Positions 2,676 to 64,000 of a DNA stretch of 64,000 bases are shown here, piece after piece (the first letter of the stretch is position 1; the number at the start of each line of letters is the position of its first letter). This DNA is from Chamaelirium japonicum (lineage: Eukaryota > Streptophyta > Magnoliopsida > Liliales > Melanthiaceae). The notes below the pieces were generated by a model, which saw nothing but the letters and a program-made list of their open reading frames with translations, did no database searches and had not been told where the DNA came from. The position numbers were made by a program, and so were the translations under genes. Where the stretch lies: positions 744,001 through 808,000 of the forward strand of contig CANTAL010000137.1 of NCBI GenBank assembly GCA_947650365.1. Reading direction: 5' to 3'.

Positions 2676-4479
2676 GCTCACCCCCAGGCTCCATAGTACA
2701 GGTTCGAAATCCTTTTCCCTACCACTTTGGTATACAACAGCTCGCCGTTGTGCCACCGTGACTGACTTGAGTGTCGGAGGGTCTGCGCTCCTAAGGGAGC
2801 CAGCCGTTCTCACGTTCTCTTTTCTTTGTCTTGCAGGCAGCCCGCACGGACCAGCGAAAATTCCCCCAAATAGTATGAGTGAATTAGAACGGATAGTACG
2901 AATGAAGTAGAATGGATCGTATGAATGAATTAGAATGGATACATTCGTGCGAATGAATTAGAATGGATCGTATGAATGAATTAGAATAGATTGTGCGAAT
3001 GAATTAGAATGGATCGTACGAATGAATTAGAATGGATACATTCGTGCGAATAAATTAGAATGGATTGTATGAATGAATTAGAATGGATCGTACGAATGAA
3101 TTAGAATGGATCGTATGAGTGAATTAGAATGGATACGAAGGAATTAGAATGGATCGTACGAATGAATTAGAATGGATCATACGAATGAAATAGAATGGAT
3201 CGTACGAAGGAATTAGAATGGATCGTACGAAGGAATTAGAATGGATCGTACGAAGGAATTAGAATGGATCGTACGAATGAATTAGAATGGATATATTCGT
3301 GCAAATGAATTAGAATGGATCGTATGAATGAATTAGAATGGATCGTATGAGTGAATTAGAACGGATAGTACGAATGAAGTAGAATGGATCGTATGAATGA
3401 ATTAGAATGGATACATTCGTGCGAATGAATTAGAATGGATCGTATGAATGAATTAGAATAGATTGTGTGAATGAATTAGAATGGATCGTACGAATGAATT
3501 AGAATGGATACATTCGTGCGAATGAATTAGAATGGATCGTACGAATGAATTAGAATGGATCGTACGAATGAATTAGAATAGATTGCGCGAATGAATTAGA
3601 ATGGATCGTACGAATGAATTAGAATGGATCGTACAAAGGAATTAGAATGGATCGTATGAATGAATTAGAATGGATCGTGCGAATGAATTAGAATGGATCG
3701 TACGAATGAATTAGAATGGATCGTGCGAATGAATTAGAATGGATCGTACGAATGAATTAGAATGGATCGTACCAATGAGTACGAATGGATCGTACGAATG
3801 AATTAGAATGGATCGTATGAATGAATTAGAATGGATCGTACGAATGAATTAGAATGGATCGTGCAAATGAATTAGAATGGATCGTATGAATGAATTAGAA
3901 TGGATCGTACGAATGACCTAGAATGGATACATTCATGCGAATGAATTAGAATGGATCGTACGAATGAATTAGAATGGATCGTACGAATGAATTAGAATGG
4001 ATCTCACGAATGAATTAGAATGGATCGTACGAATGAATTAGAATGGATCGTACGAATGAATTAGAATGGATACATTTGTGCGAATGAATTAGAATGGATC
4101 GTACGAATGAATTAGAATGGATCGTATGAATGAATTAGAATGGATCGTACGAATGAATTAGAATGGATCATACGAAGGAATTAGAATGGATCGTACAAAT
4201 GAATTAGAATGGATATATTCGTGCAAATGAATTAGAATGGATCGTATGAATGAATTAGAATGGATCGTATGAGTGAATTAGAACGGATAGTACAAATGAA
4301 GTAGAATGGATCGTATGAATGAATTAGAATGGATACATTCGTGCGAATGAATTAGAATGGATCGTATAAATAAATTAGAATAGATTGTTGGAATGAATTA
4401 GAATGGATCGTACGAATGAATTAGAATGGATCATATTAATGAATTAGAATGGATCGTACGAATGAATTAGAATGGATAC

Positions 4480-4494
4480 ATTCGTGCACGATCC
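4480..4494. repeat. F-to-R satellite junction at GTGCAC
   Basis: A 28-bp type unit in F orientation ends ATTCGTGC and continues directly as ACGATCCATT in R orientation, with the self-complementary GTGCAC at the centre. No foreign DNA lies between the two orientations. Confidence 0.85.
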
Positions 4495-7259
4495 ATTCTA
4501 ATTCATTCGCACGAATGTATCCATTCTAATTCATTCGTACGATCCATTCTAATTCATTCGTACGATCCATTCTAATTCCTTCGTACGATCCATTCTAATT
4601 CATTCGTACAATTCATTCTAATTCATTCACACGAATGTATCTATTCTAATCCATTCGTACGATCCATTCTAATGAATTAGAATTGATCGAACGAATGAAT
4701 TAGAATGGATACATTCGTGCGAATGAATTAGAATGGATCGGACGAATGAATTAGAATGGATCGTACGAATGAGTAAGAATGGATCGTACGAATGAAATAG
4801 AATAGATCGTACGAATGAATTAGAATGGAACGTACGAAGGAATTAGAATGGATCGTACAAATGAATTAGAATGGATATATTCGTGCAAATGAATTAGAAT
4901 GGATCGTATGAATGTATTAGAATGGATCGTATGAGTGAATTAGAATGGATCGTACGAATGAATTATAATGGATCGTATGAATGAATTAGAATGGATACAT
5001 TCGTGTGAATGAATTAGAATGGATCGTATGAATGAATTAGAATAGATTTTGTGAATGAATTAGAACTGATCGTACGAATGAATTAGAATGGATACATTCG
5101 TGTGAATGAATTAGAATGGATTGTATGAATGAATTAGAATGGATCCTATGAATGAATTAGAATGGATCGTGCGAATGAATTAGAATGGATCGTACGAATG
5201 ATTTAGAATGGATCGTGCTAATGAATTAGAATTGATCGAACGAATGAATTAGCATGTTCGTGCTAATGAATTAGAATGGAACGTACGAATGAATTAGAAT
5301 GGATCGTGTGAAAGAATTAGAATGGATTGTATGAATGAATTAGAATGAATTCGTACGATCCATTCGAATTCATTCGCACGATCCATTATAATTCATTCAT
5401 ACGATCCATTATAATTCTTTCATACAATCCATTCTAATTCTTTCACTCATACGATCCATTATAATTCATTCATACGATCCATTACAATTCATTCATACGA
5501 TCCATTCTAATTCTTTCATACAATCCATTCTAATTCATTCGTACAATCTATTCTATTTCATTCGTACGATCCATTCTTACTCATTCGTATGATCCATTCT
5601 AATTCATTCAGACGAATGTATCCATTCTAATTTATTCGTACGATCCATTCTAATTCATTCGTACGATCCATTCTAATTCATTCGTACGATCCATTCTAAT
5701 TCATTCGTCCGATCCATTCTAATTCATTAGCACGAATGTATCCATTCTAATTCATTCGTACGATCCATTCTAATTCATTCGTACGATCCATTCTAATTCA
5801 TTCGTAAGATCCATTCTAATTCATTCGTACGATCCATTCTAATTCATTCATACGATCCATTCTAATTCATTCATACAATCCATTCTAATTCTTTCACACG
5901 ATCCGTTCTAATTCATTCGTAGGATCCATTCTAATTCATTCGTACAATCTATTCTATTTCATTCGTACGATCCATTCTTACTCATTCGTATGATCCATTC
6001 TAATTCATTCGGACGAATGTATCCATTCTAATTTATTCGTACGATCCATTCTAATTCATTCGTACGATCCATTCTAATTCATTCATCCGATCCATTCTAA
6101 TTCATTCGCACGAATGTATCCATTGTAATTCATTCGTACGATCCATTCAAATTCATTCGTACGATCCATTCTAATTCATTCGTAAGATCCTTTCTAATTC
6201 ATTCGTACGATCCAATCTAATTCATTCGCACGATCCATTCTAATTCATTCACACGAATGTATCCATTCTAATTCATTTGCACGATCCATTCTAATTCATT
6301 CCTATGATCTATTCTAATTCATTCGTACGATCCATTCTAATTCATTCTAATTCATTCATACGATCCATTCTAATTCATTTGTACGATCCATTCTTACTCA
6401 TTCGTATGATCCATTATGGATACATTCGTGCGAATGAATTAGAATGGATCATACGAATGAGTAAGAATGGATCATACGAATGAAATAGAATGGATTGTGC
6501 GAATGAATTAGAATGGATCGTAGAATGGATCAGAATAGATCATGTGAAAGAATTAGAATGGATTGTATGAATGAATTAGAATGAATTCGTACGATCCATT
6601 CGAATTCATTCGCACGATCCATTCTAATTCATTCATACGATCCATTCTAATTCTTTCACACGATCCATTCTAATTCACTGATACGATCCATTCTAATACA
6701 TTCATACGATCCATTCTAATTCATTTGCACGAATATATCCATTCTAATTCATTCGTACGATCCACTCTAATTCCTTCGTACGATCCATTCTAATTCATTC
6801 GTACGATCTATTCTAATTCATTCGTATGATCCATTCTAATTCATTCGCACGATCCATTCTAATTCATTCATAGGATCCATTCTAATTCATTCATACGATC
6901 CATTCTAATTCTTTCGCACGATCCATGCTAATTCATTCGTTCAATCTATTCTAATTCATTAGCACGATCCATTCTAATTCATTCGTACGATCATCCATTC
7001 TAATTAATTCGTATGATCCATTCTAATTCATTCGTACGATCCATTCTAATTCATTCATACAATCCATTCTAATTCATTCGTACGATCCATTCTAATTCAC
7101 TCATACGATCCATTCTAATACATTCATACGATCCATTCTAATTCATTTACACGAATATATCCATTCTAATTCATTCGTGCGATCCATTCTAATTCCTTCG
7201 TACGATCCATTCTAATTCATTCGTACGATCTATTCTAATTCATTCGTACGAATCGTACG

Positions 7260-7299
7260 ATCCATTCTAATTCATTCGTACGAATGAATTAGAATGGAT
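7260..7299. repeat. Perfect 40-bp palindrome at an R-to-F switch
   Basis: Two perfect 20-bp arms meet at the centre of CGTACG (7279/7280). The left arm is ATCCATTCTAATTCATTCGT and the right arm is its exact reverse complement. It is a clean, in-register strand switch of the satellite and could extrude as a hairpin or cruciform. Confidence 0.93.
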
Positions 7300-10200
7300 A
7301 CATTCGTGCGAATGAATTAGAATGGATACATTCGTGCGAAAGAATTAGAATAGATCGTATGAATGAATTATAATGGATCCTATGAATGAATTAGAATGGA
7401 TCGTGCGAATGAATTAGAATGGATCGTACGAATGAATTAGAATGGATCGTGCTAATGAATTAGAATTGATCGAACGAATGAATTAGCATGGATCGTGCTA
7501 ATGAATTAGAATGGATCGTACGAATGAATTAGAATGGATCGTGTGAAAGAATTAGAATGGATGGTATGAATGAATTAGAATGGATCGTACGAATGAATTA
7601 GAATGGATCGTACGAAGGAAATAGAATGGATCGTACGAATGAATTAGAATGGATCGTACGAATGAATTAGAATAGATCGTACGAATGAATTAGAATGGAT
7701 CGTACGAAGGAATTAGAATGGATCGTACGAATGAATTAGAATGGATCGTATGAATGAATTAGAATGGATACATTCGTGTGAATGAATTAGAATGGATCGT
7801 ATGAATGAATTAGAATTGATTTTGTGAATGAATTAGAACTGATCGTACGAATGAATTAGAATGGATACATTCGTGCGAATGAATTAGAATGGATTGTATG
7901 AATGAATTAGAATGGATCCTATGAATGAATTAGAATGGTCGTACGAATGAATTAGAATGGATACATTCGTGCGAATGAATTAGAATTGATCGTACGAATG
8001 AATTAGAATGGATCGTTCGAATGAATTAGAATGGATCGTACGAATGAATTAGAATGGATACATTCGTGCGAATGAATTAGAATGGATACATTCGTGCGAA
8101 AGAATTAGAATAGATCGTATGAATGAATTAGAATGGATCCGATGAATGAATTAGAATGGATCGTGCGAATGAATTAGAATGGATCATACGAATGAATTAG
8201 AATGGATCGTGCTAATGAATTAGAATTGATCGAACGAATGAATTAGCATGGATCGTGCTAATGAATTAGCATGGATCGTGCTAATGAATTAGAATGGAAC
8301 GTACGAATGAATTAGAATGGATCGTGTGAAAGAATTAGAATGGATTGTATGAATGAATTAGAATGAATTCGTACGATCCATTCGAATTCATTCGCACGAT
8401 CCATTCTAATTCATTTATACGATCCATTCTAATTTATTCATACAATTCATTCTAATTCTTTCACACGATCCATTCTAATTCATTCGTAGGATCCATTCTA
8501 ATTCATTCGTACAATCTATTCTATTTCATTCGTACGATCCATTCTTACTCCTTCGTATGATCCATTCTAATTCATTCGGACGAATGTATCCATTCTAATT
8601 TATTCGTACGATCCATTCTAATTCATTCGTACGATCCATTTTTATTCATTCGCTCGAATGTATCCAATCTAATCCATTCGTACGATCCATTCTAATCCAT
8701 TCGTACGATCCATTCTAATTCATTCGCATGAATGTAACCATTCTAATTCATTCATTTGATCCATTCTAATTCATTCGTACGATCCATTCTAATTCATTAG
8801 CACGATCCATGCTAATTCATTCGTTCGATCAATTCTAATTCATTAGCACGATCCATTCTAATTCATTCGTATGATCCATTCTAATTCATTCGCACGATCC
8901 ATTCTAATTCATTCATAGGATCCATTCTAATTCATTCATACGATCTATTCTAATTCATTCGCACGAATGTATCCATTCTAATTCATTCGCATGAATGTAT
9001 CCATTCTAATTCATTCGTACGATCCATTCTAATTCATTCGCTTGATCCATTCTAATTCATTCGTACGATCAATTCTAATTCATTCGCACGAATGTATCCA
9101 TTCTAATTCATTCGTGCGATCCATTCTAATTCATTCATAGGATCCATTCTATTTCATTCATACAATCCATTCTAATTCATTCGCACGAATGTATCCATTC
9201 TAATTCATTCGTACGATCAGTTCTAATTCATTCACAAAATCTATTCTAATTCATTCATACGATCTATTCTAATTCATTCACACGAATGTATCCATTCTAA
9301 TTCATTCATACGATCCATTCTAATTCATTCGTACGATCCATTCTAATTCCTTCATACGATCCATTCTAATTCATTCGTACGATCTATTCTAATTCATTCG
9401 TACGATCCATTCTAATTCATTCATACGATCCATTCTAATTCCTTCGTACGATCCATTCTAATTTATTCGTACGATCCATTCTAATTCATTCATACAATCC
9501 ATTCTAATTCTTTCACACGATCCATTCTAATTCATTTGTACGATCCATTCTAATTTATTCGTGCAATCCATTCTATTTCATTCGTACGATCCATTCTTAC
9601 TCATTCGTACGATCCATTCTAATTCATTCACACGAATGTATCCATTCGTACGAATGAATTAGAATAGATTGTACGAATGAATTAGAATGGATCGTACGAA
9701 TGAATTAGAATGGTTCGTACGAAGGAATTAGAATGGATCGTACGAATGAATTAGAATAGATCGTACGAATGAATTAGAATGGATCGTACGAAAGAATTAG
9801 AATGGATCGTACGAATGAATTAGAATGGATATATTCGTGCAAATGAATTAGAATGGATCGTATGAATGTATTAGAATGGATCGTATGAGTGAATTAGAAT
9901 GGATCGTACGAATGAATTAGAATGGATCGTATGAATGAATTAGAATGGATACATTCGTGTGAATGAATTAGAATGGATCGTATGAATGAATTAGAATAGA
10001 TTTTGTGAATGAATTAGAACTGATCGTACGAATGAATTAGAATGGATACATTCATGCGAATGAATTAGAATGGATTGTATGAATGAATTAGAATGGATCC
10101 TATGAATGAATTAGAATGGATCGTACGAATGAATTAGAATGGATACATTCGTGCGAATGAATTAGAATTGATCGTACGAATGAATTAGAATGGATCGTGC

Positions 10201-12491
10201 GAATGAATTAGAATGGATCGTACGAATGAATTAGAATGGATACATTCGTGCGAATGAATTAGAATGGATACATTCGTGCGAAAGAATTAGAATAGATCGT
10301 ATGAATGAATTAGAATGGATCCTATGAATGAATTAGAATGGATCGTGCGAATGAATTAGAATGGATCGTACGAATGAATTAGAATGGATCGTGCTAATGA
10401 ATTAGAATTGATCGAACGAATGAATTAGCAAGGATCATGCTAATGAATTAGAATGGATCGTATGAATGAATTAGAATGGATCAAATGAATGAATTAGAAT
10501 GGTTACATTCATGCGAATGAATTAGAATGGATCGTACGAATGGATTAGAATGGATCGTACGAATGGATTAGAATGGATACATTCGAACGAATGAATTAGA
10601 ATGGAACGTACGAATGAATTAGAATGGATCATACGAATAAATTAGAATGGATACATTCGTCCGAATGAATTAGAATGGATCATACGAATGAGTAAGAATG
10701 GATCGTACGAATGAAATAGAATAGATTGTACGAATGAATTAGAATGGATCGTGCGAATGATTTAGAATGGATCGTACGAATGAATTAGAATGGATCGTAC
10801 GAATGAATTAGAATGGATCGTGCGAATGAATTCGAATGGATCGTACGAATAAATTAGAATGGATACCTTTGTGCAAATGAATTAGAATGGATCGTATGAA
10901 TGAATTAGAATGGATCGTATGAGTGAATTAGAACGGATAGTACGAATGAAGTAGAATGGATCGTATGAATGAATTAGAATGGATACATTCGTGCGAATGA
11001 ATTAGAATGGATCGTATGAATGAATTAGAATAGATTGTGCGAATGAATTAGAATGGATCGTACGAATGAATTAGAATGGATACATTCGTGCGAATAAATT
11101 AGAATGGATCGTACGAATGAATTAGAATGGATCGTGTGAAAGAATTAGAATGGATTGAATGAATGAATTAGAATAGATCGTATGAATGAATTAGAATGGA
11201 TCGTACGAATGAATTAGAATGGATCGTACGAATGAATTAGAATGGATACATTCGTGCGAATTAATTAGAATAGATATATTCGTGCGAAAGAATTAGAATA
11301 GATCGTATGAATGAATTAGAATGGATCCTATGAATGAATTAGAATGGATCGTGCGAATGAATTAGAATGGATCGTACGAATGAATTAGAATGGATCGTGT
11401 GAAAGAATTAGAATGGATCGTACGAATGAATTAGAATGGATCGTGCGAATGAATTAGAATGGATCGTACGAATGAATTAGAATGGATACATTTGTGCGAA
11501 TGAATTAGAATGGATCGTATGAATGAATTAGAATGGATCATACGAATGAATTAGAATGGATCGTGTGAAAGAATTAGAATGGATTGTACGAATGAATTAG
11601 AATGGATCGTGCGAATGAATTAGAATGGATCGTACGAATGAATTAGAATGGATACATTCGTGCGAATGAATTAGAATGGATCGGACGAATGAATTAGAAT
11701 GGATCGTACGAATGAGTAAGAATGGATCGTACGAATGAAATAGAATAGATCGTACGAATGAATTATAATGGATCGTACGAAGGAATTAGAATGGATCGTA
11801 TGAATGAATTAGAATGGATATATTCGTGCAAATGAATTAGAATGGATCGTATGAATGTATTAGAATGGATCGTATGAGTGAATTATAATGGATCGTACGA
11901 ATGAATTAGAATGGATCGTATGAATGAATTAGAATGGATACATTCATGTGAATGAATTAGAATGGATCGTATGAAGGAATTAGAATGGATCGTGCGAATG
12001 AATAAGAATGGATCGTAAGAATGAATTAGAATGGATATATTTGTGCGAATGAATTAGAATGGATCGTATGAATGAATTAGAATGGATCGTACGAATGAAT
12101 TAGAATGGATCGTGCGAATGAATTAGAATGGATCGTACGAATGAATTAGAATGGATCGTACGAATGAACTAGAATGGATACATTCGTGCGAATGAATTAG
12201 AATGGATCGTACGAATGAATTAGAATGGATCTTACGAATGAATTAGAATGGATCGTACGAATGAATTAGAATGGATCGTACGAATGAATTAGAATGGATC
12301 TTACGAATGAATTAGAATGGGTTGTACGAATAAATTAGAATGGATCGTATGAATGGTTTAGAATGGATACATTCGTGCGAATGAATTAGAATGGATCGGA
12401 CGAATGAATTAGAATGGATCGTACGAATGAATTAGAATGGATCAAATGAATGAATTAGAATGGTTACATTCATGCGAATGAATTAGAATGG

Positions 12492-12723
12492 TTATCATGA
12501 TGAGGTGACCAACCTGATCATAGCTGCGAACTTATTTAGGTTATACGGGACCAATCCACTTAGTCTTCAACTCAGTGGACTACCATATAACCAGGGCTCT
12601 CTATTCCCTAAAGAACACGTAACTATGTTACGCACCTATATGCATCTCATATAATAATAACTATCAATCTTTATTAGACCATCACATAAAGTTTTACAAG
12701 CTTAGAACACATCAATCCCAACA
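12492..12723 (-). repeat. Partial left LTR of the copia element
   Basis: This matches 20350-20581 over its whole 232 bp with 5 differences and no length change. It carries the LTR terminus beginning TGTTGGGATTG on the minus strand, next to the polypurine tract. Its outer boundary abuts F-strand satellite. Confidence 0.95.
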
Positions 12724-12733
12724 ATCTCCCACT
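12724..12733 (-). other. Polypurine tract
   Basis: On the minus strand AGTGGGAGAT lies immediately before the LTR start TGTTGGG. This is the expected position and composition for the plus-strand primer in copia reverse transcription. Confidence 0.85.
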
Positions 12734-12860
12734 TGGTCTAGCGAAGCAAAACGGTTTTGACTCCCATCGCATCCACATGTCGCTCGAATGCCTTGGTAGG
12801 TATTGCCTTTGTGAAAGGATCAGCAACATTATCTGTAGATGCAATCTGTGTCACCGCTAC

Positions 12861-13730
12861 TCACCCTTGCTTTTGAAACTGTCGAATCAAGTGGAACTTG
12901 CGCTCGATGTGCTTCCCCTTTTGGTGATGTCTTGGCTCCTTTGCTTGTGCTACCGCCCCACTATTGTCGCAGTAAAGCACAATAGGTAACTGGGCCTCTG
13001 GTACGCACCCCAAATCTGTAAGGAATTTCTTGAGCCATACCGCCTCTTTGGCTGCCTCGCACGCTGCAACGTACTCAGCCTCTGTGGTAGAGTCTGCGAT
13101 GCATTTCTGCTTCACACTCTGCCAACTAACCGCTGCTCCTCCTAACATAAACACAAAACCTGATGTCGACTTTCTGGATTCCAAATCTGACATAAAGTCA
13201 GAATCAGTGTATCCAATCGGCATCAGTTCTTGTGCAGTGTAAACCAACTCATAGTCCCTTGTTCTACGAAGGTACTTGAGTATACACTTCACAGCTGTCC
13301 AGTGATCTGGGCCCGGATTCGACTGAAACCGACCCATCATTCCTACTGCGAAACAGATATCAGGCCTTGTACAATGCATAGCATACATTAGACTACCTAA
13401 TGCCGAAGCATAAGGTATCTTCTGCATTTCTGCTCTCTCCTCAGGTGTCTTAGGACATTGATCCTTAGACAGTTTTACGCCATGTCTAAATGGCACAAAA
13501 CCCTTCTTGGAGTTTTGCATGTCAAATCTAGCCATAACCTTATCTATATACGCAGCTTGTGATAGCGAGAGAATCCTGTTCTGGTGATCACGTGTTACCT
13601 TGATCCCCAAAACATAACTCGCTTCACCTAGGTCTTTCATATCGAACTGTGTTGACAACCAGACCTTTACCGTTGACAATGTTCCTACATCATTTCCAAT
13701 GAGTAGAATATCGTCTACGTAAAGTATCAA
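12861..13730 (-). mobile_element. Copia RT end and RNase H region (fossil part)
   Basis: The minus-strand translation begins with the reverse transcriptase catalytic motif YVDDILLIG. It continues through the copia-typical FDMKDLGEASYVLGI and LSQAAYIDKVMARF segments, then GSLMYAMHCTRPDICFAVG. The RNase H part follows with YTDSDF, SRKSTSGFVFMLGG, SWQSVKQKCIADSTTEAEY and HIERKFHLIR. These are textbook copia pol features (RVT_2 followed by RNase H). It is one part of the broken element above. Confidence 0.95.
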
Positions 13731-14339
13731 ATATACTACTGTGGTCTTATCAGTCCTCTTGTATACACATGGTTCATCCTTGTTTTGAGTAAATCCATAC
13801 GACTAGATTGCCTGATCAAAACGGATGTTCCAACTTCTAGATGCTTGCTTTAGTCCATAAATGGACTTCTGCAACTTGCAAACTAGATGTTCCTGACCCT
13901 CTGACTCAAAGCCTGGTGGCTGAATCATATAAATGTCTTCTTCCAAATTTCCATTGAGGAATGCTGTCTTGATATCTATTTGCCAGATCTCCTAGTTGTA
14001 ATGGGCTGCAATGGATAGGAGGATCCGAATAGACTTTATCATAGCTACCGGCGAGAAGGTTTCGGCAAAGTCGATCCCTTCTCTCTGGGTATAACCCTTG
14101 GCAACTAATCTAGCTTTATAAGTCTCTATTGTACCATCGGATCCTCTCTTCTTCTTATACACCTACTTACACCCAATAGGTTTAATATTAGATGATGGTG
14201 TAACAAGAGTCCAGACTGCGTTATGGGACATTGATTCAATTTCTGCCTCCATAGCCTTTTGCCAGTCAGAGCTATCAGAAGCTCCCACTGCCTCATCGTA
14301 GCTCAGTGGGTCATCCTCCTGACCCTCTGGATCAACCAA
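13731..14339 (-). mobile_element. Copia reverse transcriptase N-terminal region (fossil part)
   Basis: On the minus strand this region encodes recognisable reverse transcriptase pieces such as [48 protein letters not shown] and IYGLKQA. These are hallmark motifs of the copia RVT_2 domain. This stretch carries several of the element's breaks. Confidence 0.85.
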
Positions 14340-14894
14340 TTAGGTTTCTCTATAGTATCTGTCAGGAGCTCTGATGTTTCTCCCACTGTGATAAGGTGGT
14401 GGTGGTGTTACAGGATTAATAGGTTCTACAGTATCTAGTATATTATTATCTGTAATGTCAGCTCCCACTATGCTTTCGGATGCGCTCTCTGATCTAGTAC
14501 CCAGTAGCTCATCCAGAACTACCTTACTAGCAGGCTTGTGGTCCATAATATAATCATGTTCTAGGAAAATGGCATTCGTTGAAACGATTACCTTCTTTTC
14601 CTCAGGATCATAAAATAGCCCACCTTTAGTCTCTTTGGGATACCTTACAAACATACATGCTTTGGACTTTGGCTCTATCTTTTCCCTCTTGTCTATCCGC
14701 ACATGTGCAGGACATCCCCATATTCTGAAATGCTGTAGTGTTGGCTTTTGCCTTGACCACAGTTCTCTAGGGGTCTGAGGCACTGATTTAGATGGAACGT
14801 GGTTCAGAACATATACTGCTGTCTGAAGGGCATATCCCCAAAAGGTCATTGGTAAACAGGCATAACTCATCATTCTTCGAACCATGTCCAACAA
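14340..14894 (-). mobile_element. Copia integrase C-terminal region (fossil part)
   Basis: The minus-strand translation includes the integrase C-terminal pattern WGYALQTAVYVLNHVPSKS, FRIWGCPAHVRI, KACMFVRYPKETKGG and IFLEHDYI. An acidic/proline linker and the YHSGRNIRAPDRYY segment that precedes reverse transcriptase follow. The order and motifs match plant copia pol. Confidence 0.92.
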
Positions 14895-14927
14895 GGTTCG
14901 ATTCCTTCTCTCAGAGACTCCATTCTG

Positions 14928-15659
14928 TTATGGGGTACCTGGAGCAGTTAACTGGGATGTTATCCCATGCTCCACCAAATACTCAAGGAACTCGTCAGAT
15001 AGGTATTCGCCTCCTCGATCAGATCGAAGGGTTTTTATACATTTACCTGTCTGCTTTTCTACTTCAGCCCTGAACTCTTTGAACATGTCAAAGGATTCCG
15101 ACTTCCGATGCATAAGGTAAATGTAACCATATCTTGAGTAATCATCTGTAAAAGTGATGAAGTACTCATGGCCTCCTATCGCCTTGACGCTCATGGGTCC
15201 ATATACATCTGAATGGATTAACTCCAATACCTCAGTAGCTCTCACTCCTTGGCCTTTGAAGGCCCTCTTGGTCATCTTGCCTTCTAGGCAGGATTCACAG
15301 GTGGGAAGGATCTCCGTAGGATCTGTTTCCAGAAGCCCGGCCTTTACCAATCTATGGATCCTATCTAATGCAATATGCCCAAGCCGTAAGTGCCACAATT
15401 GGGTTAAATTCTCCGAAGGTTTCTTACGCTTAGATGAATTAACATTAAATACTGAAGTTATTATGTTATCTTTCTCAAATTTAGGACTGACAATATAGAG
15501 ATGATTCTGAACCATTCCTCTTATTATAAAAGTTCCATTCAGTTTTAAAGACACACCAGATGTATCAAAATAAACTGAATAACCTTCGTTAACTAAAGAA
15601 GAAACATAAATTAAGTTACGTCTCAAGGATGGTACATAAAAGACATCTCTAAGAGTCAA
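14928..15659 (-). mobile_element. Copia GAG-pre-integrase and integrase core (fossil part)
   Basis: The minus-strand translation shows LWHLRLGHIALDRIHRL and CESCLEGKMTKRAF, the HHCC zinc-binding region of integrase. The catalytic core follows with D in IHSDVYGPM, D in FTDDYSRYGYIYLM and E in SDRGGEYLS, the D,D-E triad region. An upstream segment (VPSLRRNLIYVSSL) is the usual lead-in from protease. Identity is not in doubt. Confidence 0.95.
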
Positions 15660-15662
15660 AGT

Positions 15663-49265: not shown

Positions 49266-52200
49266 AGAATGGATCCTACGAATGAATTAGAATAGATCGT
49301 GTGAAAGAATTAGAATGGATTGTATGAATGAATTAGAACGAATTCGTACGATCCATTCGAATTCATTCGCACGATCCATTCTAATTCATTCATACGATCC
49401 ATTCTAATTCATTCATACAATCCATTCTAATTCTTTCACACGATCCATTCTAATTCATTCGTAGGATCCATTCTAATTCATTCGTACAATCTATTCTATT
49501 TCATTCGTACGATCCATTCTTACTCATTCGTATGATCCATTCTAATTCATTCGGACAAATGTATCCATTCTAATTTATTCGTACGATCCATTCTAATTAA
49601 TTCGTACGATCCATTCTAATTCATTCGTACGATCCATTCTAATTCATTCGTACGATCCATTCTAATTCATTCGTTAGATCCATTATAATTCATTCGTACG
49701 ATCCATTCAAATTCATTCGTCCGATCCATTCTAATTCATTCGCACGAATGTATCCATTCTAATTCATTCGTACGATCCATTCTAATTCATTCGCACGAAT
49801 GTATCCATTCTAGTTCATTCGTACGATCCATTCTAATTCATTCGTACGATCCATTCTAATTCATTCCCACGATCCATTCTAATTTATTCGTACGATCCAT
49901 TCTAATTCATTCGTATGATCTATTCTAATTCATTCGCACATATGTAACCATTCTAATTCATTCATACGATTCATTCTAATTCATTCGTATGAGCTATTCT
50001 AATTCATTCGTACGATCCATTCTAATTCATTCGTACGATCCATTGTAATTCATTCATACAATCCATTTAGATTCATTCGCACAAATGTATCCATTCAAAT
50101 TCATTCGTACGATCCAGTCTAATTCATCCGTACGATCCATTCTAATTCATTCGCACGAATATATCCATTCTAATTCTTTCGTACGATGAATTCTAATTCA
50201 TTCGTACGATTATCCATTCGTGCGAATGAATTAGAATGGATCGTGCATGAATGTATCCATTCTAATTCATTCGTACGATCCATTCTAATTCATTAATATG
50301 ATCCATTCTAATTCATTAGGACGATCCACTCTAATTCATATGCACAAAGGTATCCATTCTAATCCATTCGTAGGATCCATTCTAATCCATTCGTACGATC
50401 CATTCTAATTCATTCGTACGATCCATTCTAATTTATTCGCTCGAATGTATCCATTCTAATCCATTCGTACGATCCATTCTAATCCATTCATACGATCCAT
50501 TCTAATTCATTCGCATGAATGTAACCATTCTAATTCATTCATTTGATCCATTCTAATTCATTCGTACGATCCATTCTAATTCATTCGTCCGATCCATTCT
50601 AATTCATTCGCATGAATGTATCCATTTTAATTCATTCATACGATCCATTCTAATTCATTAATATGATCCATTCTAATTCATTCGTACGATCCATTCTAAT
50701 TCATTCGTACGATCCATTCTAATTTATTCGTACGATCCATTCTAATTCATTCGTAAGATCCATTCTAATTCATTCGTACGATCCATTCTAATTCATTCGT
50801 ACGATCCATTCTAATTCATTCGCACGAATGTATCCATTCTAGTTCATTCGTACGATCCATTCTAATTCATTCGTACGATCCATTCTAATTCATTCGCATG
50901 AATGTATCCATTCTAATTCATTCGTACGATCCATTCTAATTCATTAATATGATCCATTCTAATTCATTCGTACGATCCATTCTAATTCATATGCACAAAG
51001 GTATCCATTCTAATTCATTCGTACGATCCATTCTAATTTAGAATCGTAAGAATGAATTAGAATGGATACATTCGTGCGAATGAATTAGAATTGATCGTAC
51101 GAATGAATTAGAATGGATCATGCGAATGAATTAGAATGGATCGTACGAAAGAATTAGAATGGATCGTACGAATGAACTAGATTGGATACATTCGTGCGAA
51201 TGAATTAGAATGGATCGTATGAATGAATTAGAATGGATCGTACGAATGAATTAGAATGGATCTTACGAATGAATTTGAATGGATCGTACGAATGAATTAG
51301 AATGGATCGTACGAATGAATTAGAATGGATACATTCGTGCGAATGAATTAGAATGGATCGGACGAATGAATTAGAATGGATCGTACGAATGAATTAGAAT
51401 GGATCGTACGAATGAATTAGAATGGATCATACGAATAAATTAGAATGGATACATTCGTCCGAATGAATTAGAATGGATCATACGAATGAGTAAAAATGGA
51501 TCGTACGAATGAAATAGAAAAGATTATACGAATGAATTAGAATGGATCCTACGAATGAATTAGAATGGATCGTGTGAAAGAATTAGAATGGATTGTATGA
51601 ATGAATTAGAATGGATCGTATGAATGAATTAGAATGGATCGTGAGAATAAATTCGAATGGATCGTATGAATTCATTCTAATTCATTCATACAATCCATTC
51701 TAATTCTTTCACACGATCTATTCTAATTCATTCGTACAATCTATTCTATTTCATTCGTACGATCCATTCTTACTCATTCGTATGATCCATTCTAATTCAT
51801 TTGGACGAATGTATCCATTCTAATTTATTTGTACGATCCATTCTAATTCATTCGTACGATCCATTCTAATTCATTCTTACGATCCATTCTAATTCATTCG
51901 TCCGATCCATTCTAATTCATTCGCACGAATGTATCCATTCTAATTCATTCGTATGGTCCATTCTAATTCATTCGCACAATCCATTCTATTTCATTCGTAC
52001 GATCCATTCTATTTCATTCGTGCGAATGAATTAGAATGGATCGGACGAATGAATTAGAATGGATCGTACGAATGAATTAGAATGGATCGTACGAATGAAT
52101 TAGAATGGATACATTCGTCCGAATGAATTAGAATGGATCATACGAATGAGTAAGAATGGATCGTACGAATTTATTAGAATAGATTGTACGAATGAATTAG

Positions 52201-55200
52201 AATGGATCCTACGAATAAATTAGAATGGATCGTGTGAAAGAATTAGAATGGATAGTATGAATGAATTAGAATGGATCGTATGAATTAATTAGAATGGATC
52301 GTGCGAATGAACTCGAATGGATCGTACGAATTCATTCTAATTCATTCATACAATCCATTCTAAGTCTTTCACACGATTTATTCTAATTCATTCGTAGTAT
52401 CCATTCTAATTCATTCGTACAATCCATTCTTACTCATTCGTATGATCCATTCTAATTCATTCGGACGAATGTATCCATTCTAATTCATTCGTACGATCCA
52501 TTCTAATTCATTCGTAAGATCCATTCTAATTCATTCGTACGATCCATTCTAATTCATTCGTACGATCCATTCTAATTCATTCATACGATCCATTCTAATT
52601 CATTCATACGATCTATTCTAATTCATTCATGCAATCCATTCTAATTCTTTCACATGATCCATTCTAATTCATTCGTACAATCCATTCTAATTCATTCGCA
52701 CAATCCATTCTATTTTATTCGTACGATCCATTCTTATTCATTCGTATGATCCATTCTAATTCATTCGCACGAATGTATCCATAATGGATCATACGAATGA
52801 GTAAGAATGGATCGTACGAATGAAATAGAATGGATTGTGCGAATGAATTAGAATGGACCGTACGAATGAATTAGAATGGATACATTTGTGCGAATGAATT
52901 AGAATGGATCGGACGAATGATTTAGAATGGATCGTACGAATGAATTAGAATGGATCGTACGAATGAATTAGAATGGATCATATGAATAAATTAGAATGGA
53001 TACATTCGTCCGAATGAATTAGAATGGATCATACGAATGAGTAAGAATGGATCGTACGAATGAAATAGAATAGATTGTACGAATGAATTAGAATGGATCC
53101 TACGAATGAATTAGAATGGATCATGTGAAAGAATAAGAATGGATTGTATGAATGAATTAGAATGGATCGTATGAATGAATTAGAATGGATCGTGCGAATG
53201 AATTCGAATGGATCGTACGAATTCATTCTAATTCATTCATACAATCCATTCTAATTCTTTCACACAATCCATTCTAATTCATTCGTACGTTCCATTCTAA
53301 TTCATTAGCACGATCCATGATAATTCATTCGTTCGATCAATTCTAATTCATTAGCACGATCCAATCTAATTCATTCATACGATCCATTCTAATTCATTCG
53401 TACGATCCATTCTAATTCATTCGCACAAATGTATCCATTCTAATTCATTCATACGATCCATTCTAATTCATTCGCACGATCCATTCTAATTCATTCATAC
53501 AATCCATTCTAATTCTTTCACACGATCTATTCTAATTCATTCGTAGGATCCATTCTAATTCATTCGTACAATCTATTCTATTTCATTCGTACGATCCATT
53601 CTTACTCATTCGTATGATCCATTCTACTTCATTCGGACGAATGTATCCATTCTAATTTATTCGTACGATCCATTCTAATTCATTCGTACGATCCATTCTA
53701 ATTCATTCATATGATCCATTCTAATTCATTCGTATGATCTATTCTTATTCATTCGCACGATCCAGTCTAATTGATTCGCACGATCCATTCTAATTCATTC
53801 GCACGAATGTATCCATTCTAATTCATTCGTACGATCCATTCTAATTCATTAATATGATCCATTCTAATTCATTCGTATGATCCATTCGAATTCATTCGTA
53901 GGATTCATTCTAATTCATTCGTACAATATATTCTATTTCATTCGTACGATCCATTCTTGCTCATTCGTATGATCCATTCTAATTCATTCGGACGAATCTA
54001 TCCATTCTAATTTATTCGTACGATCCATTCTAATTCATTCGTACGATCCATTCTAATTCATTCGTACGATCCATTCTAATTCATTCATACGATCCATTCT
54101 AATTCATTCATACAATCCATTCTAATTCTTTCACATGATCCATTCTAATTCATTCGTACGATCCATTCTAATTCATTCGTACGATCCATTCTAATTCATT
54201 CTAATTCTTTCACACGATCCATTCTAATTCATTCGTAGGATCCATTCTAATTCATTCGTACAATGAGTAAGAATGGATCGTACGAATGAAATAGAATGGA
54301 TTGTACGAATGATTTAGAATGGATACATTCGTGCGAATGAAATAGAATGGATTGTGCGAATGAATTAGAATGGATCGTACGAATGAATTAGAATGGATCA
54401 TGTGAAAGAATTAGAATGGATTGTATGAATGAATTAGAATAGATTGTATGAATGAATTAGAATGGATCGTACGAACGAATTAGAATGGATCGTACGAATG
54501 AATTAGAATGGATCGTACGAATGAATTAGAATGGATCGTACAAATGAATTAGAATGGATCGTGTGAAAGAATTAGAATGGATTGTACGAATGAATTAGAA
54601 TGGATCGTGCGAATGAATTAGAATGGATCGTACGAATGAATTAGAATGGATCGTGCTAATGAATTAGAATGGATCGTACCAATGAGTAAGAATGGATCGT
54701 ACGAATGAAATAGAATGGATTGTGCGAATGAATTAGAATGGATCGTACGAATGAATTAGAATGGATCGTGTGAAAGAATTAGAATGGATTGTATGAATGA
54801 ATTAGAATAGATCGTATGAATGAATTAGAATGGATCGTACGAATGAATTAGAATGGATCGTGCGAATGAATTAGAATGGATCGTACGAATGAATTAGAAT
54901 GGATACATTCGTGCGAATGAATTAGAATGGATCGGACGAATGAATTAGAATGGATCAAAGGAATGAATTAGAATGGATCGTACGAATGAATTAGAATGCA
55001 TCGTACGAAAGGATTAGAATGGATATATTCGTGCGAATGAATTAGAATGGATCATATGAATGAATTAGAATGGATCGTATGAGTGAATTAGAACGGATAT
55101 TACGAATGACGTAGAATGGATCGTATGAATGAATTAGAATAGATACATTCGTGCGAATGAATTAGAATGGATCTTATGAATGAATTAGAATAGATTGTGC

Positions 55201-55429
55201 GAATGAATTAGAATGGATCGTACGAATGAATTAGAATGGATACATTCGTGCGAATAAATTAGAATAGATTGTATGAATGAATTAGAATGGATCGTACGAA
55301 TGGATTAGAATGGATCGTACGAATGAATTAGAATAGATTGCGCGAATGAATTTGAATGGATCGTGCGAATGAAATAGAATGGATACAAATGAATTAGAAT
55401 GGATCATACGAATAAATTAGAATGACGAT

Positions 55430-55760
55430 CCACTCTTACTCATTCGTATGATCCATTCTAATTTATTCGCACGAATGTATCCATTCTAATTCATTCGTAC
55501 GTCTAATTCATTCGTACGGTCCATTCTAATTCATTCGCACAATCCATTCTATTTCATTCGTACGATCCATTCTTACTCATTCGTATGATCCATTATGGAT
55601 ACATTCGTGCGAATGAATTAGAATGGATCATACGAATGAGTAAGAATGGATCATACGAATGAAATAGAATGGATTGTGCGAATGAATTAGAATAGATCGT
55701 ACGAATGAATTAGAATGGATCGTGTGAAAGAATTAGAATTGATTGTTTGAATGAATTAGA
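55430..55760. repeat. Higher-order block, copy B1
   Basis: The block has a distinctive shortened unit CGTACGTCTAATTC, then CGTACGGTCC, then the R-to-F switch GATCCATTATGGATAC. The same order recurs at about 59590-59920. The switch alone also occurs near 6416. Confidence 0.85.
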
Positions 55761-56833
55761 ATAGATCGTATGAATGAATTAGAATGGATCGTACGAATGA
55801 ATTAGAATGGATCGTACGAATAAATTAGAATGGATCGTACGAATGAATTAGAATGGATACATTCGTGCGAATGAATTAGAATGGATACATTCGTGCAAAA
55901 GAATTAGAATAGATCGTATGAATGACTTAGAATGGATCCTATGAATGAATTAGAATGGATCGTGCGAATGAATTAGAATGGATCGTATGAATGAATTAGA
56001 ATGGATCGTGCTAATGAATTAGAATTGATCGAACGAATGAATTAGCATGGATCGTGCTAATGAATTAGAATGGAACGTACGAATGAATTAGAATGGATCG
56101 TGTGAAAGAATTAGAATGGATTGTATGAATGAATTAGAATGAATTCGTACGATCCATTCGAATTCATTCGCACGATCCATTCTAATTCATTCATACGATC
56201 CGTTCTAATTCATTCATACAATCCATTCTAATTCATTCACACGATCCATTCTAATTCATTCGTAGGATCCATTCTAATTCATTCGTACAATCTATTCTAT
56301 TTCATTCGTACGATCCATTCTTACACATTCGTATGATCCATTCTAATTCATTCGGACGAATGTATCGATTCTAATTTATTCGTACGATCCATTCTAATTC
56401 ATTCGTACGATCCATTCTAATTCATTCGTACGATCCATTCTTACTCATTTGTATGATCCATTCTAATTCATTCGTACGATCCATTCTAATTCATTCATAC
56501 AATCCATTCTAATTCATTCGTAGGATCGATTCTAATTCATTCGCACTATCCATTCTAATTCATTCGTACGATCCATTCTAATTCATTCGTATGATCCATT
56601 CTAATTTATTCGTTCAAATATATCCATTCTAATTCATTCGTACGATCCATTCTAATTCATTCGCACGATCCATTCTAATTCATTCGCACGAATGTATCCA
56701 TTCTAATTCATTTGCACGATCCATTCTAATTCATTCCTATGATCTATTCTAATTCATTCGTACGATCCATTCTAATTCATTCTAATTCATTCGTACGATC
56801 CATTCTACGATCTATTCTAATTCATTCGTATAT

Positions 56834-56880
56834 TCCATTCTAATTCATTAGCACGATCCATGCTAATGAATTAGAATGGA
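56834..56880. repeat. Perfect 19-bp inverted repeat with a 9-nt spacer
   Basis: The arms are TCCATTCTAATTCATTAGC (56834-56852) and its exact reverse complement (56862-56880), separated by ACGATCCAT. It forms the left side of a very short F island (about 56864-56886) in an R run. Confidence 0.92.
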
Positions 56881-59589
56881 TCGTACGATCCAATCTAATT
56901 CATTCATACGATCCATTCTTACTTATTTGTATGATCCATTCTAATTCAATCGTACGATCCATTCTAATTCATTCGTACGATCCATTCTAATTCCTTCGTA
57001 CGATCCATTCTAATTCATTCGTACGATCCATTCTAATTCCTTCGTACGATCCATTCTAATTCATTAGTACAATCTATTCTAATTCATTCGTACGAATGGA
57101 TACATTCGTGTGAATGAATTAGAATGGATCGTACGAATGAGTAAGAATGGATCGTACGAATGAAATAGAATAGATTGCACGAATGAATTAGAATTGATCG
57201 TACGAATGAATTAGAATAGATCATGCGAATGAATTAGAATGGATCGTACGAATGAATTAGAATGGATCGTACGAATGAACTAGAATGGATACATTCGTGC
57301 GAATGAATTAGAATGGATCGTACGAATGAATTAGAATGGATCGTACGAATGAATTAGAATGGATCGTACGAATGAATTAGAATGGATACATTCGTGCGAA
57401 TGAATTAGAATAGATCGGACGAATGAATTAGAATGGATCGTACGAATGAATTAGAATGGATCGTACGAATGGATTAGAATGGATCATACGAATGAATTAG
57501 AATGGATCGTGCGAATGAATTAGAATGGATCGAACGAATGAATTAGAATGGATAGTACGAATGAGTAAGAATGGATCGTACAAATGAATTAGAATGGATT
57601 AGAATGGATCGTACGAATGAAATAGAATAGATTGTACGAATGAATTAGAATGGATTCGTACGAATGAATTAGAATGGATACATTCGTGGAAATGAATTAG
57701 AATGGATCGTACCAATAAGTAAGAATGGATCGTACGAATGAATTAGAATGGATCGTACGAAGGAATTAGAATGGATCGTACGAATGAATTAGAATGGATC
57801 GTACGATTGAATTAGAATGGCTCATACGAATGAGTAAGAATGGATCGTATGAATGAATTAGATTGGATCGTACGATCCATTCGAATTCATTAGCATGGAT
57901 CGTGCTAATGAATTAGAATGGAATATACGAAAGAATTAGAATGGATCGTAGAATGGATCGTACGAATGAATTTCAATGGATACATTTGTGCGAATGAATC
58001 TAAATGGATTGTATGAATGAATTAGAATGGATTGTACGAATGAATTAGAATGGATCATACGAATTAATTAGAATGGATCGTACGAATGAATTAGAATGGT
58101 TACATTCGTGCGAATTAATTAGAATGGATCGTACGAATGAATTAGAATGGATATATTCGTGCAAATGAATTAGAATGGATCGTACGAATAAATTAGAATG
58201 GATCATACGAATTAATTAGAATGGATCTTACGAATGAATTAGAATGGATCGTACGAATGAATTAGAATGGATCGTGCGAATGAATTAGAATGGATCGTAC
58301 GAATGAATTAGAATAGATCGTACAAATGAATTAGAATGGATCGCACGAATGGATTAGAATGGATACATTCGAGCGAATGAATTAGAATGGATCGTACGAA
58401 TGAATTAGAATGGATCATACGAATGAGTAAGAATGGATCGTACGAATGAATTAGAATGGATCGTACGAATGAATTAGAATGGATCGTACGAATAAATTAG
58501 AATGGATACATTCGTCCGAATGAATTAGAATGGATCATACGAATGAGTAAGAATGGATCGTACGAATGAAATAGAATAGATCGTACGAATGAATTAGAAT
58601 GGAATATACGAATGAATTAGAATGGATCGTAAAAATGAATTAGAATGGATCGTATGAATGAATTAGACTGGATCGTACGAATGAATTAGAATGGATCGTG
58701 TGAATGAATTCGAATGGATCGTACGATCCATTCTAATTCATTCATACAATCTATTCTAATTCATTCGCATGAATGTATCCATTCTAATCCATTCGTACGA
58801 TCCATTCTAATTCATTCGCACAAATGTATACATTCTAATTCATTCGTACGATCCATTCTAATTCATTCATACGATCCATTCTAATTCATTCGTATGATCC
58901 ATTCTAATTAATTCGTATGATCCATTCTAATTCATTCGTACGATCCATTCTAATTTATTCGTACGATCCATTCTAATTCATTCGTATGATCCATTCTAAT
59001 TAATTCGTATGATCCATTCTAATTCATTCGTACGATCTATTCTAATTCATTCATACGATCCATTCTAATTCTTTCGCATAATCCATTCTATTTCATTCGT
59101 ACGATCCATTCTTACTCACTGGTACGATCCATTCTAATTCATTCGCATGAATGTATCCATTCTAATTCATTCGTACGAATCCATTCTAATTCATTTGCAC
59201 GAATATATCCATTCTAATTCATTCGTACGATCAATTCTAATTCATTCGCACGAATGTATCCATTCTAATTCATTCGTACGATCCATTCTAATTCATTCAT
59301 ACAATCCATTCTAATTCTTTCACACGATCCATTCTAATTCATTCGTAGGATCCATTCTAATTCATTCGTACAATCTATTCTATTTCATTCGTACGATCCA
59401 TTCTTACTCATTCGTATGATCCATTCTAATTCATTCGCACGAATGTATCCATTCTAATTCATTCGTACGAATCCATTCTAATTCATTCGTACAATCCATT
59501 CTATTTCATTCGTACGATCCATTCTAACTCATTCGTACGATCCATTCTAATTCATTTGTACGATCCATTCTAATTTATTCGCACGATCC

Positions 59590-59920
59590 ATTCTAATTCA
59601 TTCACATGATCCATTCTTACTCATTCGTATGATCCATTCTAATTTATTCGCACGAATGTATCCATTCTAATTCATTCGTACGTCTAATTCATTCGTACGG
59701 TCCATTCTAATTCATTCGCACAATCCATTCTATTTCATTCGTACGATCCATTCTTACTCATTCGTATGATCCATTATGGATACATTCGTGCGAATGAATT
59801 AGAATGGATCATACGAATGAGTAAGAATGGATCGTACGAATGAAATAGAATGGATTGTGCGAATGAATTAGAATGGATCGTACGAATGAATTAGAATGGA
59901 TCGTGTGAAAGAATTAGAAT
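59590..59920. repeat. Higher-order block, copy B2
   Basis: Carries the same short unit (CGTACGTCTAATTC), CGTACGGTCC and R-to-F switch as 55430-55760, in the same order and spacing. Confidence 0.85.
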
Positions 59921-61332
59921 GGATTGTATGAATGAATTAGAATAGATCGTATGAATGAATTAGAATGGATCATACGAATGAATTAGAATGGATCGTACGA
60001 ATGAATTAGAATGGATACATTTGTGAATGAATTAGAATGGGTCGTATGAATGAATTAGAATGGATCGTACGAATGAATTAGAATGGATCTTATGAATGAA
60101 TTAGAATAAATCGTACGAATGAATTAGAATGGATCTTACGAATGAATTAGAATAAATCGTACGAATGAATTAGAATGGATCGTACGAATGAATTAGAATG
60201 GATACATTTGTGCAAATGAATTAGAATGGATCGTACGAATGAATTAGAATGGATCGTATGAATGAATTAGAATGGATCGTACGAATGAATTAGAATGGAT
60301 CGTGCGAAGGAATGAGAATGGATCGTACGAAGGAATTAGAATGGATATATTCGTGCAAATGAATTAGAATGGATCGTACGAATGTATTAGAATGGATCGT
60401 ATGAGTGAATTAGAATGGATCGTGCGAATGAATTAGAATTGATTGTATGAATGAATTAGAATGGATCGTACGAATGAATTAGAATGGATCGTACGAATGA
60501 ATTAGAATGGATCGTACGAATGAACTAGAATGGATACATTCGTGCGAATGAATTAGAATGGATCGTGCGAATGAATTAGAATGGATCGTACGAATGAACT
60601 AGAATGGATACATTCGTGCGAATGAATTAGAATGGATCGTACGAATGAATTAGAATGGATCGTACGAATGAATTAGAATGGATCTTACGAATGAATTAGA
60701 ATGGATACATTCGTGCGAATGAATTGGAATGGATCGGACGAATGAATTAGAATAGGTCGTACGAATGAATTAGAATGGATCGTACGAATGAACTAGAATG
60801 GATACATTCGTGCGAATGAATTAGAATGGATCATACGAATAAATTAGAATGGATCGTACGAATGAATTAGAATGCATCTTACGAATGAATTAGAATGGAT
60901 CGTACGAATGAATTAGAATGGATACATTCGTGCGAATGAATTAGAATGGACACATTCGTGCGAATGAATTAGAATGGATCGGACGAATGAATAAGAATGG
61001 ATCGTACGAATTAATTAGAATGGATCAAATGAATAAATTAGAATGGTTACATTCTTGCGAATGAATTAGAATGGATCGTACGAATGGATTAGAATGGATC
61101 GTACGAATGGATTAGAATGGATACATTCGAGCGAATGAATTAGAATAGATCGTACGAATGAAATTAGAATGGATCGTACGAATGAATTAGAATAGATCGT
61201 ACGAATGAATTAGAATGGATCGTGCGAATGAATTAGAATGGATCGTGTGAAAGAATTAGAATGGATCGTACGAATGAATTAGAATGGATCGTGCGAATGA
61301 ATTAGAATGGATCGTACGAATGAGTTAGAATG

Positions 61333-62000
61333 GATCGTGCTAATGAATTAGAATTGATCGAACGAATGAATTAGCATGGATCGTGCATTCGTACGATCCA
61401 TTCTAATTCATTCGTAAGATCCATTCTATATCATTCGTACGATCCATTCTAATTTATTCGTACGATCCATTCTAATTCATTCGCACCAATGTATCCATTC
61501 TAGTTTATTCGTATGATCCATTCTAATTCATTCGGACGATCCATTTTAATACATTCATACGATCTATTCTAATTCATTCATACAATCCATTCTAATTCTT
61601 TCACACGATCCATTCTAATTTATTCGTACGATCCATTCTAATTCATTCGCACAATCCATTCTAATTCATTCGTACGATCCATTCTTACTCATTCGTATGA
61701 TCCATTCTAATTCATTCGCACGAATGTATCCATAATGGATCATACGAATGAGTAAGAATGGATCGTACGAATGAAATAGAATGGATTGTGCGAATGAATT
61801 AGAATGGACCATACGAATGAATTAGAATGGATACATTCGTGTGAATGAATTAGAATGGATCGGACGAATGAATTAGAATGGATCGTACGAATGAATTAGA
61901 ATGGATCGTACGAATAAATTAGAATGGATACATTCGCCCGAATGAATTAGAATGGATCATATAAATGAGTAAGAATGGATCGTACAAATGAAATAGAATA
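61333..62000. repeat. Higher-order block, copy A3
   Basis: Third copy of the block at 30140-30840 and 48590-49265, with both inverted junctions (near 61386 and 61733) conserved. Confidence 0.85.
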
Positions 62001-63359
62001 GATTGTACGAATGAATTAGAATGGATCGTGCGAATGAATTAGAATGGATCGTACGAATGAATTAGAATGGATCGTACGAATGAATTAGAATGGATCGTGC
62101 GAATGAATTAGAATGGATCATATTAATGAATTAGAATGGATCGTACGAATGAATTAGAATGGATACATTCATGCGAATGAATTAGAATGGATCGTGCGAA
62201 TCCATTAGACTGGATCATGTGAATGAATAAGAATGGATCATACGAATGAATTAGAATGGATCGTACGAATTAATAGAATGGATACATTCATGCGAATGAA
62301 TTAGAATGGATTGTATGAATGAATTAGAATGGATCGTACGAATGAATTAGAATGGATCATACGAATTAATTAGAATGGATCATACGAATGAATTAGAATG
62401 GATCGTACGAATGAATTACAATGGATCGTACGACTGAACTAGAATGGATCGTACGAATGAACTAGAATGGATACATTCGTCCGAATGAATTAGAATGGAT
62501 CGTACGAATGAATTAGAATGGATCGTACGATTCATTCTAATTCATTCGTACGATCCATTCTAATACATTTGTACGATTCAAGCTAATTCATTCGCACGAT
62601 CCATTCTAATTCATTCGTACGATCCATTCTTATTCATTCATACGATCCATTCTAATTCATTCGCACAATCCATTCTAATTCATTCGTATATTCCATTCTA
62701 ATTCATTCGTATGATCCATTCTAATTCATTCGGTGGATCCATTCTAATTCATTCGTACGATCCATTCTAATTCATTCCCACGATCCATTCTAATTTATTC
62801 GTACGATCCATTCTAATTCATTCGTACGATCTATTCTAATTCATTCGCACGAATGTAACCATTCTAATTCATTCATACGATTCATTCTAATTCATTCATA
62901 TGAGCTATTCTAATTTATTCGTACGATCCATTCTAATTCATTCATACAATCTATTTAGATTCATTCGCACAAATGTATCCATTTAAATTCATTCATACGA
63001 TCCAGTCTAATTCATTCGTACGATCCATTCTAATTCATTCGCACAAATATATCCATTCTAATTCTTTCGTACGATGCATTCTAATTCATTCGTACGATCC
63101 ATTCTAATTTATTCGTACGATCCATTCTAATTCATTCGTACGATCCATTCTAATTCATTTGCACGAATATATCCATTCTAATTCATTCATACAATCCATT
63201 CTATTTCATTCGTACGATCCATTCTTACTCATTCGTATGATCCATTCTTATTCATTCGTATGATCCATTCTAATTCATTCGTACGATCCATTCTAATTCA
63301 TTCGTACGATCCATTCTAATTCATTCGCACGATCCATTCTAATTCATTCATACGATCCA

Positions 63360-63690
63360 TTCTAATTCATTCCTACAATCCATTCTAATTCATTCGCCCG
63401 ATCCATTCTAATTCATTCATACGATCCATTCTATTCGAATGGATCATGCGATCCATTTGAATTCATTCGCACGATCCATTCTAATTAATTCATACGATCC
63501 ATTCTAATTCATTCATACAATGCATTCTAATTCTTTCACACGATCCATTCGAATTCATTCGTACGATCCATTCTAATTCATTCGTACAATCCATTCTATT
63601 TCATTTGTACAATCCATTCTTACTCATTCGTATGATCCATTCTAATTCATTCGTACGATCCATTCTAATTCATTTGTACGATCCATTCTA
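63360..63690. repeat. Paralogous block with the empty site for the solo LTR
   Basis: This matches 25350-25680 plus 26648 onward, including the tiny flip ATTCGAATGGATCATGCG and the variant CATACAATGCATTC. At 63633-63637 it has a single TGATC where the other copy has the solo LTR between two TGATC. Confidence 0.88.
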
Positions 63691-64000
63691 ATTCATTCGT
63701 ACAATCCATTCTATTTCATTCGTACGATCCATTCTTACTCTTTCGTATGATCCATTCTACTTCATTCGCACGAATGTATCCATTCTAATTCATTCATACA
63801 ATCCATTCTAATTCATTCCGTACGATCCATTCTAATTCATTCGTACGATCATACGAATGAATTAGAATGGATCGTACGAATGAATTAGAATAGATTGTGC
63901 GAATGAATTAGAATGGATCGTACGAATGAATTAGAATGGATCGTACGAATGAATTAGAATGGATCATACGAATGAGTAAGAATGGATCGTACGAATAAAT

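Follow-up and report, generated by a model that had tools for sequence, protein, structure and literature searches.

Among described repeats, the one nearest to the repeat considered here is the satellite Chio1/Chio2, which binds CENH3 in Chionographis japonica (Kuo et al. 2023; PMC10264360). The passages of that paper drawn on here describe a 5-bp deletion and a 1-bp substitution separating Chio1 from Chio2, a mixture of forward and reverse arrays within a centromere unit, and a share of about 16–17% of the genome, which makes Chio the most abundant repeat; the published primary assembly comprises 1,526,137,861 bp in 3,786 primary contigs. A paper of 2025 (PMC12722358), in the corresponding passages, mentions the "frequently alternating orientation" of Chio and names a 9-mer, TTCGTACGA, as common to Chio and Chama. 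Chama is the centromere satellite of Chamaelirium luteum, from the sister genus, and differs in its 60-bp monomer and in its homogeneous arrays of consistent orientation (PMC12722358). Tyba, from Rhynchospora pubera, likewise forms a repeat-based holocentromere, but has a monomer of 172 bp and units of 15–25 kb (as given in PMC10264360). The DNA analysed here, referred to as the window, is a stretch of 64,000 nucleotides from Chamaelirium japonicum (contig CANTAL010000137.1, called C149; C149:744001-808000), in which a short satellite repeatedly reverses strand.

The preferred reading, to which a probability of roughly 0.8 is given, is that this satellite is Chio1 (23 bp) and Chio2 (28 bp), the identity going by the published description, and that its strand reversals, or flips, are mostly inherited copies of founder junctions. 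The 23-bp form used for comparison with Chio1 is GTACGAATGAATTAGAATGGATC. Read from the letters of the window, the 23-bp form runs GGAT-CGTACGAATG and the 28-bp form GGAT-ACATT-CGTGCGAATG, the longer being the shorter with ACATT added and one A/G substitution (CGTGCG for CGTACG). The minus-strand monomer, CATTCGTACGATCC, holds both the 9-mer TTCGTACGA and an 8-bp dyad, TCGTACGA, which is read here as the paper's own 8-bp dyad, whose published letters stand in a figure. The two monomer lengths agree, as do the 5-bp and 1-bp changes between the forms, the 9-mer, the dyad and the mixed orientation, and on this basis the satellite is identified, by description, as Chio1/Chio2. The likeness to the passages of PMC10264360 extends to higher-order mixtures and to a very high copy number, and in a comparison made by description no difference was found; an unflipped exact dimer occurs 287,733 times (143,361 forward and 144,372 reverse) in the genome searched (1,518,659,071 bp in 3,253 contigs). 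Going by the paper, the window array would be part of a single putative megabase CENH3-binding centromere unit. The first-pass annotation had not recognised the satellite as a described one, a view that gives way to the published record of Chio1/Chio2 and its mixed orientation. The satellite and its alternation are thus already in print, and the finding is not new, either in kind or, going by the description, in identity.

Satellite makes up 50,728 bp (about 50.7 kb) of the window, with the 23-bp unit intermixed with the 28-bp form. A scan of the whole window with the core GAATTAGAATGGAT, allowing at most 4 mismatches, returned 2,176 core matches (1,206 on the plus and 970 on the minus strand), a handful of which are chance matches inside a retroelement, the run map holding nine such cores at 14–20 kb. 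Successive cores on the same strand are spaced by 23 bp in 1,766 cases and by 28 bp in 272. Tandem Repeats Finder (TRF) reports period-23 arrays at 2873-12463, 20704-62530, 62523-63850 and 63847-64000, and, at a higher order, periods of 120, 143 and 189 bp, each the sum of a single 28-bp monomer and four, five or seven of 23 bp. The array had been annotated as a 23-bp satellite over 2873..64000. The satellite itself was borne out, including by the tandem-repeat check from 2873 to 64000, and 23 bp is indeed the main spacing; the unit is in fact a 23/28-bp mixture with higher-order periods, and its continuity is broken at 12492-20581 by a copia element and at 25685-26648 and about 36512-36809 by retroelement fragments. 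Four strand-alternating, Chio1/Chio2-type segments, none with a strand of its own, are consequently delimited by the run map and junction list: 2873..12491 (nine runs, and also supported by TRF), 20582..25684, 26649..36511 and 36810..64000, the last of which continues past the window to the contig end at C149:841255.

Strand reversals whose two cores lie less than 80 bp apart number 69, in keeping with the 65–70 that had been estimated by eye; counting every run gives 72 switches, and dropping runs of fewer than three monomers gives 58. The 74 single-strand runs have a mean of 686 bp, a median of 545 bp and a maximum of 2,838 bp (with the copia element excluded; a slightly different rule yields 73 runs), values close to the first-pass figures of about 750 bp per run and some 52 kb in all. 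Measured in monomers, run length has a mean of 29.3 and a standard deviation (s.d.) of 23.9, against an s.d. of 28.8 expected of a memoryless process, and is therefore near memoryless. The description of a plant satellite with a short unit and clean flips also held, the median overlap at the join lying between −4 and +14 bp in all 23 junction families with at least two members.

These families were obtained by clustering the 56 bp around each flip, in either orientation, at a distance of no more than 8 edits. Once junctions lying 32 bp or less from the end of a locus had been removed, 259 were clustered, taken from the window, from other loci of C149 and from 30 loci of another contig, C1. They fall into 37 families, 19 of which account for the 69 flips of the window; 63 of the 69 belong to families with at least two window copies and 64 to families also present in the C1 loci. 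If the reversals were meant as separate events, that part of the first-pass annotation does not stand, and a set of 65–70 independent inversions was rejected in favour of the 19 families. The largest family, F00, exemplified by the plus-to-minus junction at 5325..5383, has 18 window flips, seven of them with the exact 47-mer. F02 (minus to plus, for example 38838..38919) has eight and F01 (minus to plus, for example 6374..6461) has seven. Genome-wide, the exact 47-mer of F00 occurs 10,328 times (5,149 forward, 5,179 reverse), that of F02 8,032 times (3,988 and 4,044) and that of F01 6,281 times (3,179 and 3,102). F23, with a single window junction at 32656..32716, is found exactly 347 times (177 forward, 170 reverse) on at least seven scaffolds, the 100 matches listed being distributed as 38 on C1, 17 on C2, 9 on C3, 1 on C4, 8 on C5, 5 on C6 and 22 on C7. 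By comparison, two control joins of the consensus at arbitrary phase gave 0 and 0 exact matches in the same genome. F00, F01 and F02 each occur in both orientations within the window, and reverse copies of F02 are also present on C1.

Whole blocks are shared as well as single junctions. Among 4,742 matches between C149 and C1, 24 cross at least two flips on both sides; of the 30 flip-crossing matches listed, 11 do so, and the order of the family labels agrees in eight of these. Within the window, a block with four flips (50137-52021) and one with three (48282-49970) are among those shared. Self-matches that start in satellite are divided into 66 inverted and 62 direct (66 and 67 when retroelement pairs are included), so that the copying looks blind to strand. 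The recurrence of exact junctions, the absence of the arbitrary-phase control joins and the sharing of multi-flip blocks together make many of the flips look inherited and amplified rather than made anew. Sequence beside the joins points the same way: in 70-bp windows flanking the join in 12 families, where random in-phase identity is 0.82 (s.d. 0.075), identity between copies exceeded the random value on both sides in eight families (F00, F01, F02, F04, F05, F08, F10 and F11).

Equal junctions could also be the product of recurrent flipping, in which palindromes within the monomer, namely TCGTACGA and, in the 28-bp form, a longer dyad, give rise to flips again and again by fold-back or template switching and each family is a repeated hot-spot event. 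Hairpin-induced breaks are proposed in passages of the 2025 paper (PMC12722358), and in seven of the 23 families with at least two members, F02 (14 bp) among them, the median overlap is at least 7 bp, compared with about 10% of 5,918 simulated random joins (binomial P 0.005); monomer dyads therefore probably seed a minority of the flips. The window also contains a fold-back pair of about 1.2 kb with 94.8% identity (8376-9589 / 9646-10864), and within 7430-10864 lie three copies in alternating orientation, of about 0.9–1.2 kb and about 94–95% identical (7430-8365, 8688-9629 and 9650-10552), which suggests a local fold-back triplication. Yet mirror identity in the arms of the 69 flips does not rise above that of 100 control pairs (0.767 vs 0.775), and fold-back was rejected as a general cause despite the existence of single fold-back pairs. 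In the two largest families the join overlap is 2 bp (F00) and 0 bp (F01), so that homology is unlikely to target them, and F04 and F05 similarly have almost no homology at the join. An ideal palindrome fold with consensus flanks, which is its own reverse complement, is present at 141 places genome-wide against the 10,328 copies of F00. Moreover, F00 lacks symmetry and goes together with a rare variant in its flank, GAATTCGAATGG, which lies within 45 bp of 26 of 32 F00 junctions and has 51 copies in the C149 sequence examined. Whilst F02 and others do sit at a dyad, a palindrome hot spot was rejected as the whole explanation, given the lack of join homology in F00 and F01 and the rarity of the ideal fold. 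Taken with the blocks of several different flips common to C149 and C1, these observations make recurrent flipping an unlikely source of most junctions.

Two further accounts are given far less weight. Satellite arrays are hard to assemble and this contig ends inside one, so the flips might be thought false joins. However, the published C. japonica assembly, presumed to be the genome searched here, was built, according to the passages of PMC10264360, from HiFi libraries whose mean lengths were 14, 15, 20 and 26 kb, to a depth of 58.5x, such that single reads can span many flips, and the same junction sequences are found thousands of times over, in one case on at least seven scaffolds. Given such reads and such recurrence, it is very unlikely that the flips are assembly joins; the authors also report mixed orientation, probably from the same assembly and hence not as independent support (PMC10264360). 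Equally improbable, or nearly so, is a different, undescribed satellite or species that merely resembles Chio. In its favour, the comparison goes by description, the Chio monomer letters standing in a figure and a supplementary table; it is opposed by the agreement in lengths, in the 5-bp plus 1-bp difference, in the 9-mer with its dyad and in the mixture of orientations. A new plant satellite was accordingly rejected in favour of the match to Chio by description.

Several observations weigh against the reading of the satellite as Chio with mostly inherited flips. On the side of identity, the match is by description, since the letters of the Chio monomers stand in the figure and supplementary table, and both the species and CENH3 binding at this contig are taken from the paper. 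On the side of inheritance, a match to F00 was the criterion for taking the 30 C1 loci, several of which overlap, so that F00 is on C1 by construction and the counts are not independent; the unplaced contig C149 could lie on the chromosome of C1; and 4,493 of the 4,742 matches between them cross no flip. The genome-wide balance of strands comes partly from the arbitrary orientation of scaffolds. The window junction of F17 has one exact copy in the genome, and a 93-bp string of F00 has a single copy, itself. F00, F03, F06 and F13 each hold more than one join, and the founder events may for that reason well exceed 19. In the flank test the excess of F00 is modest (0.87 vs 0.82, s.d. 0.075), F12 exceeds random on one side only, and F03, F06 and F07 on neither; 330–400 bp out, the flanks of most families fall below the random value, because phase is lost. 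Finally, the 14-bp overlap of F02, the third largest family, falls at the palindrome of the 28-bp form, and a repeated origin is therefore conceivable for that family.

The array is interrupted by a retrotransposon and by probable retroelement pieces. A Ty1/copia long terminal repeat (LTR) retrotransposon occupies 12492..20581 on the minus strand, with an LTR pair at 12492-12723 / 20350-20581 (232 bp, 97.8% identical) and matches to Pfam RVT_2, rve and Retrotran_gag_2. The satellite lies on opposite strands on its two sides, and the left flank, GAATTAGAATGG, is the exact reverse complement of the right flank, CCATTCTAATTC, which means that the satellite strand flips exactly across the element. 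No direct target-site repeat was seen in the flanks viewed (window 12480-20593), and the flip may possibly be an inversion that arose by recombination between two elements. The first 2.87 kb or so of the window is rich in guanine and cytosine (GC), the satellite starting at 2873. A GC-rich retroelement fragment with a 22-bp minisatellite at 25685..26648 (minus strand; TRF and self-comparison) is related to window 1-2870 in reverse orientation, and a further retroelement fragment at 36512..36809 (plus strand, edges good to a few bp) was placed by its 96% identity to 2571-2870, the figure being 96.6% between 36508-36804 and 2571-2867. These three are probably pieces of one GC-rich retroelement family; the minisatellite of about 22 bp, GAGCTCGCC, lies inside two of them, and the reading frame at 1-636, the sole frame scanned from a GC-rich piece, matched no Pfam family.

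Beyond the window, 12 further loci of C149 were typed: six are all satellite (L032, L033, L034, L039, L040 and L041), two nearly so (L031, L038), two partly (L036, L037) and two non-satellite (L035, L042). The last of these is the opposite contig end (C149:1-10000), which has a GC content of about 15% and consists mostly of degenerate AATT/TTAA-rich repeats without the satellite. On C1, the places of flip junctions at C1:2518000-2852744 repeat at an offset of about 164 kb. With a tolerance of 300 bp, 25 of 82 places typed as F01, F02 or F23 among the matches listed recur at +164 kb, compared with 11 at the best other shift; a long segment of a centromere unit has probably been duplicated in tandem there.

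If the flips are mostly inherited from founders, a limited set of inversion junctions would have arisen, some perhaps at palindromes within the monomer, others almost or entirely without homology. These founders would then have multiplied and been carried between centromere units as passengers in blocks of several to more than 100 kb, copied in either orientation. The route may have been segmental duplication, ectopic exchange or gene conversion, and extrachromosomal circular DNA (eccDNA) is also possible. In a stronger form, which is favoured with noticeably less confidence than the preferred reading itself, the junctions would be inherited barcodes, a few dozen founders whose copies, spread over several chromosomes, stand at tens of thousands of sites, without preference for either orientation and within blocks that can exceed 100 kb. 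The passages of PMC10264360 on mixed orientation neither sort junctions into families nor count their copies, and they mention no shared blocks with several flips. Junction families were not found in print in the main-text passages of both Chio papers or in literature searches, supplements and some preprints being outside that scope, and the literature on satellite orientation yielded no case closer by title. Relative to those passages, the apparent inheritance and amplification of many flips is what is added here.

How about 100 megabase centromere units come to share one satellite is a question in both papers, and the routes that their authors offer, in the passages concerned, are interlocus gene conversion, inversions or eccDNA (PMC10264360, PMC12722358). 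Flip junctions are rare and recognisable marks that could help to choose between these routes. Block transfer fits the proposal of interlocus gene conversion and gives a way to test it. If the flips are indeed inherited, the order in which junctions follow one another could show which unit was the source of which others, and orientation-blind ectopic exchange between centromere units would be the engine that spreads the holocentromere.

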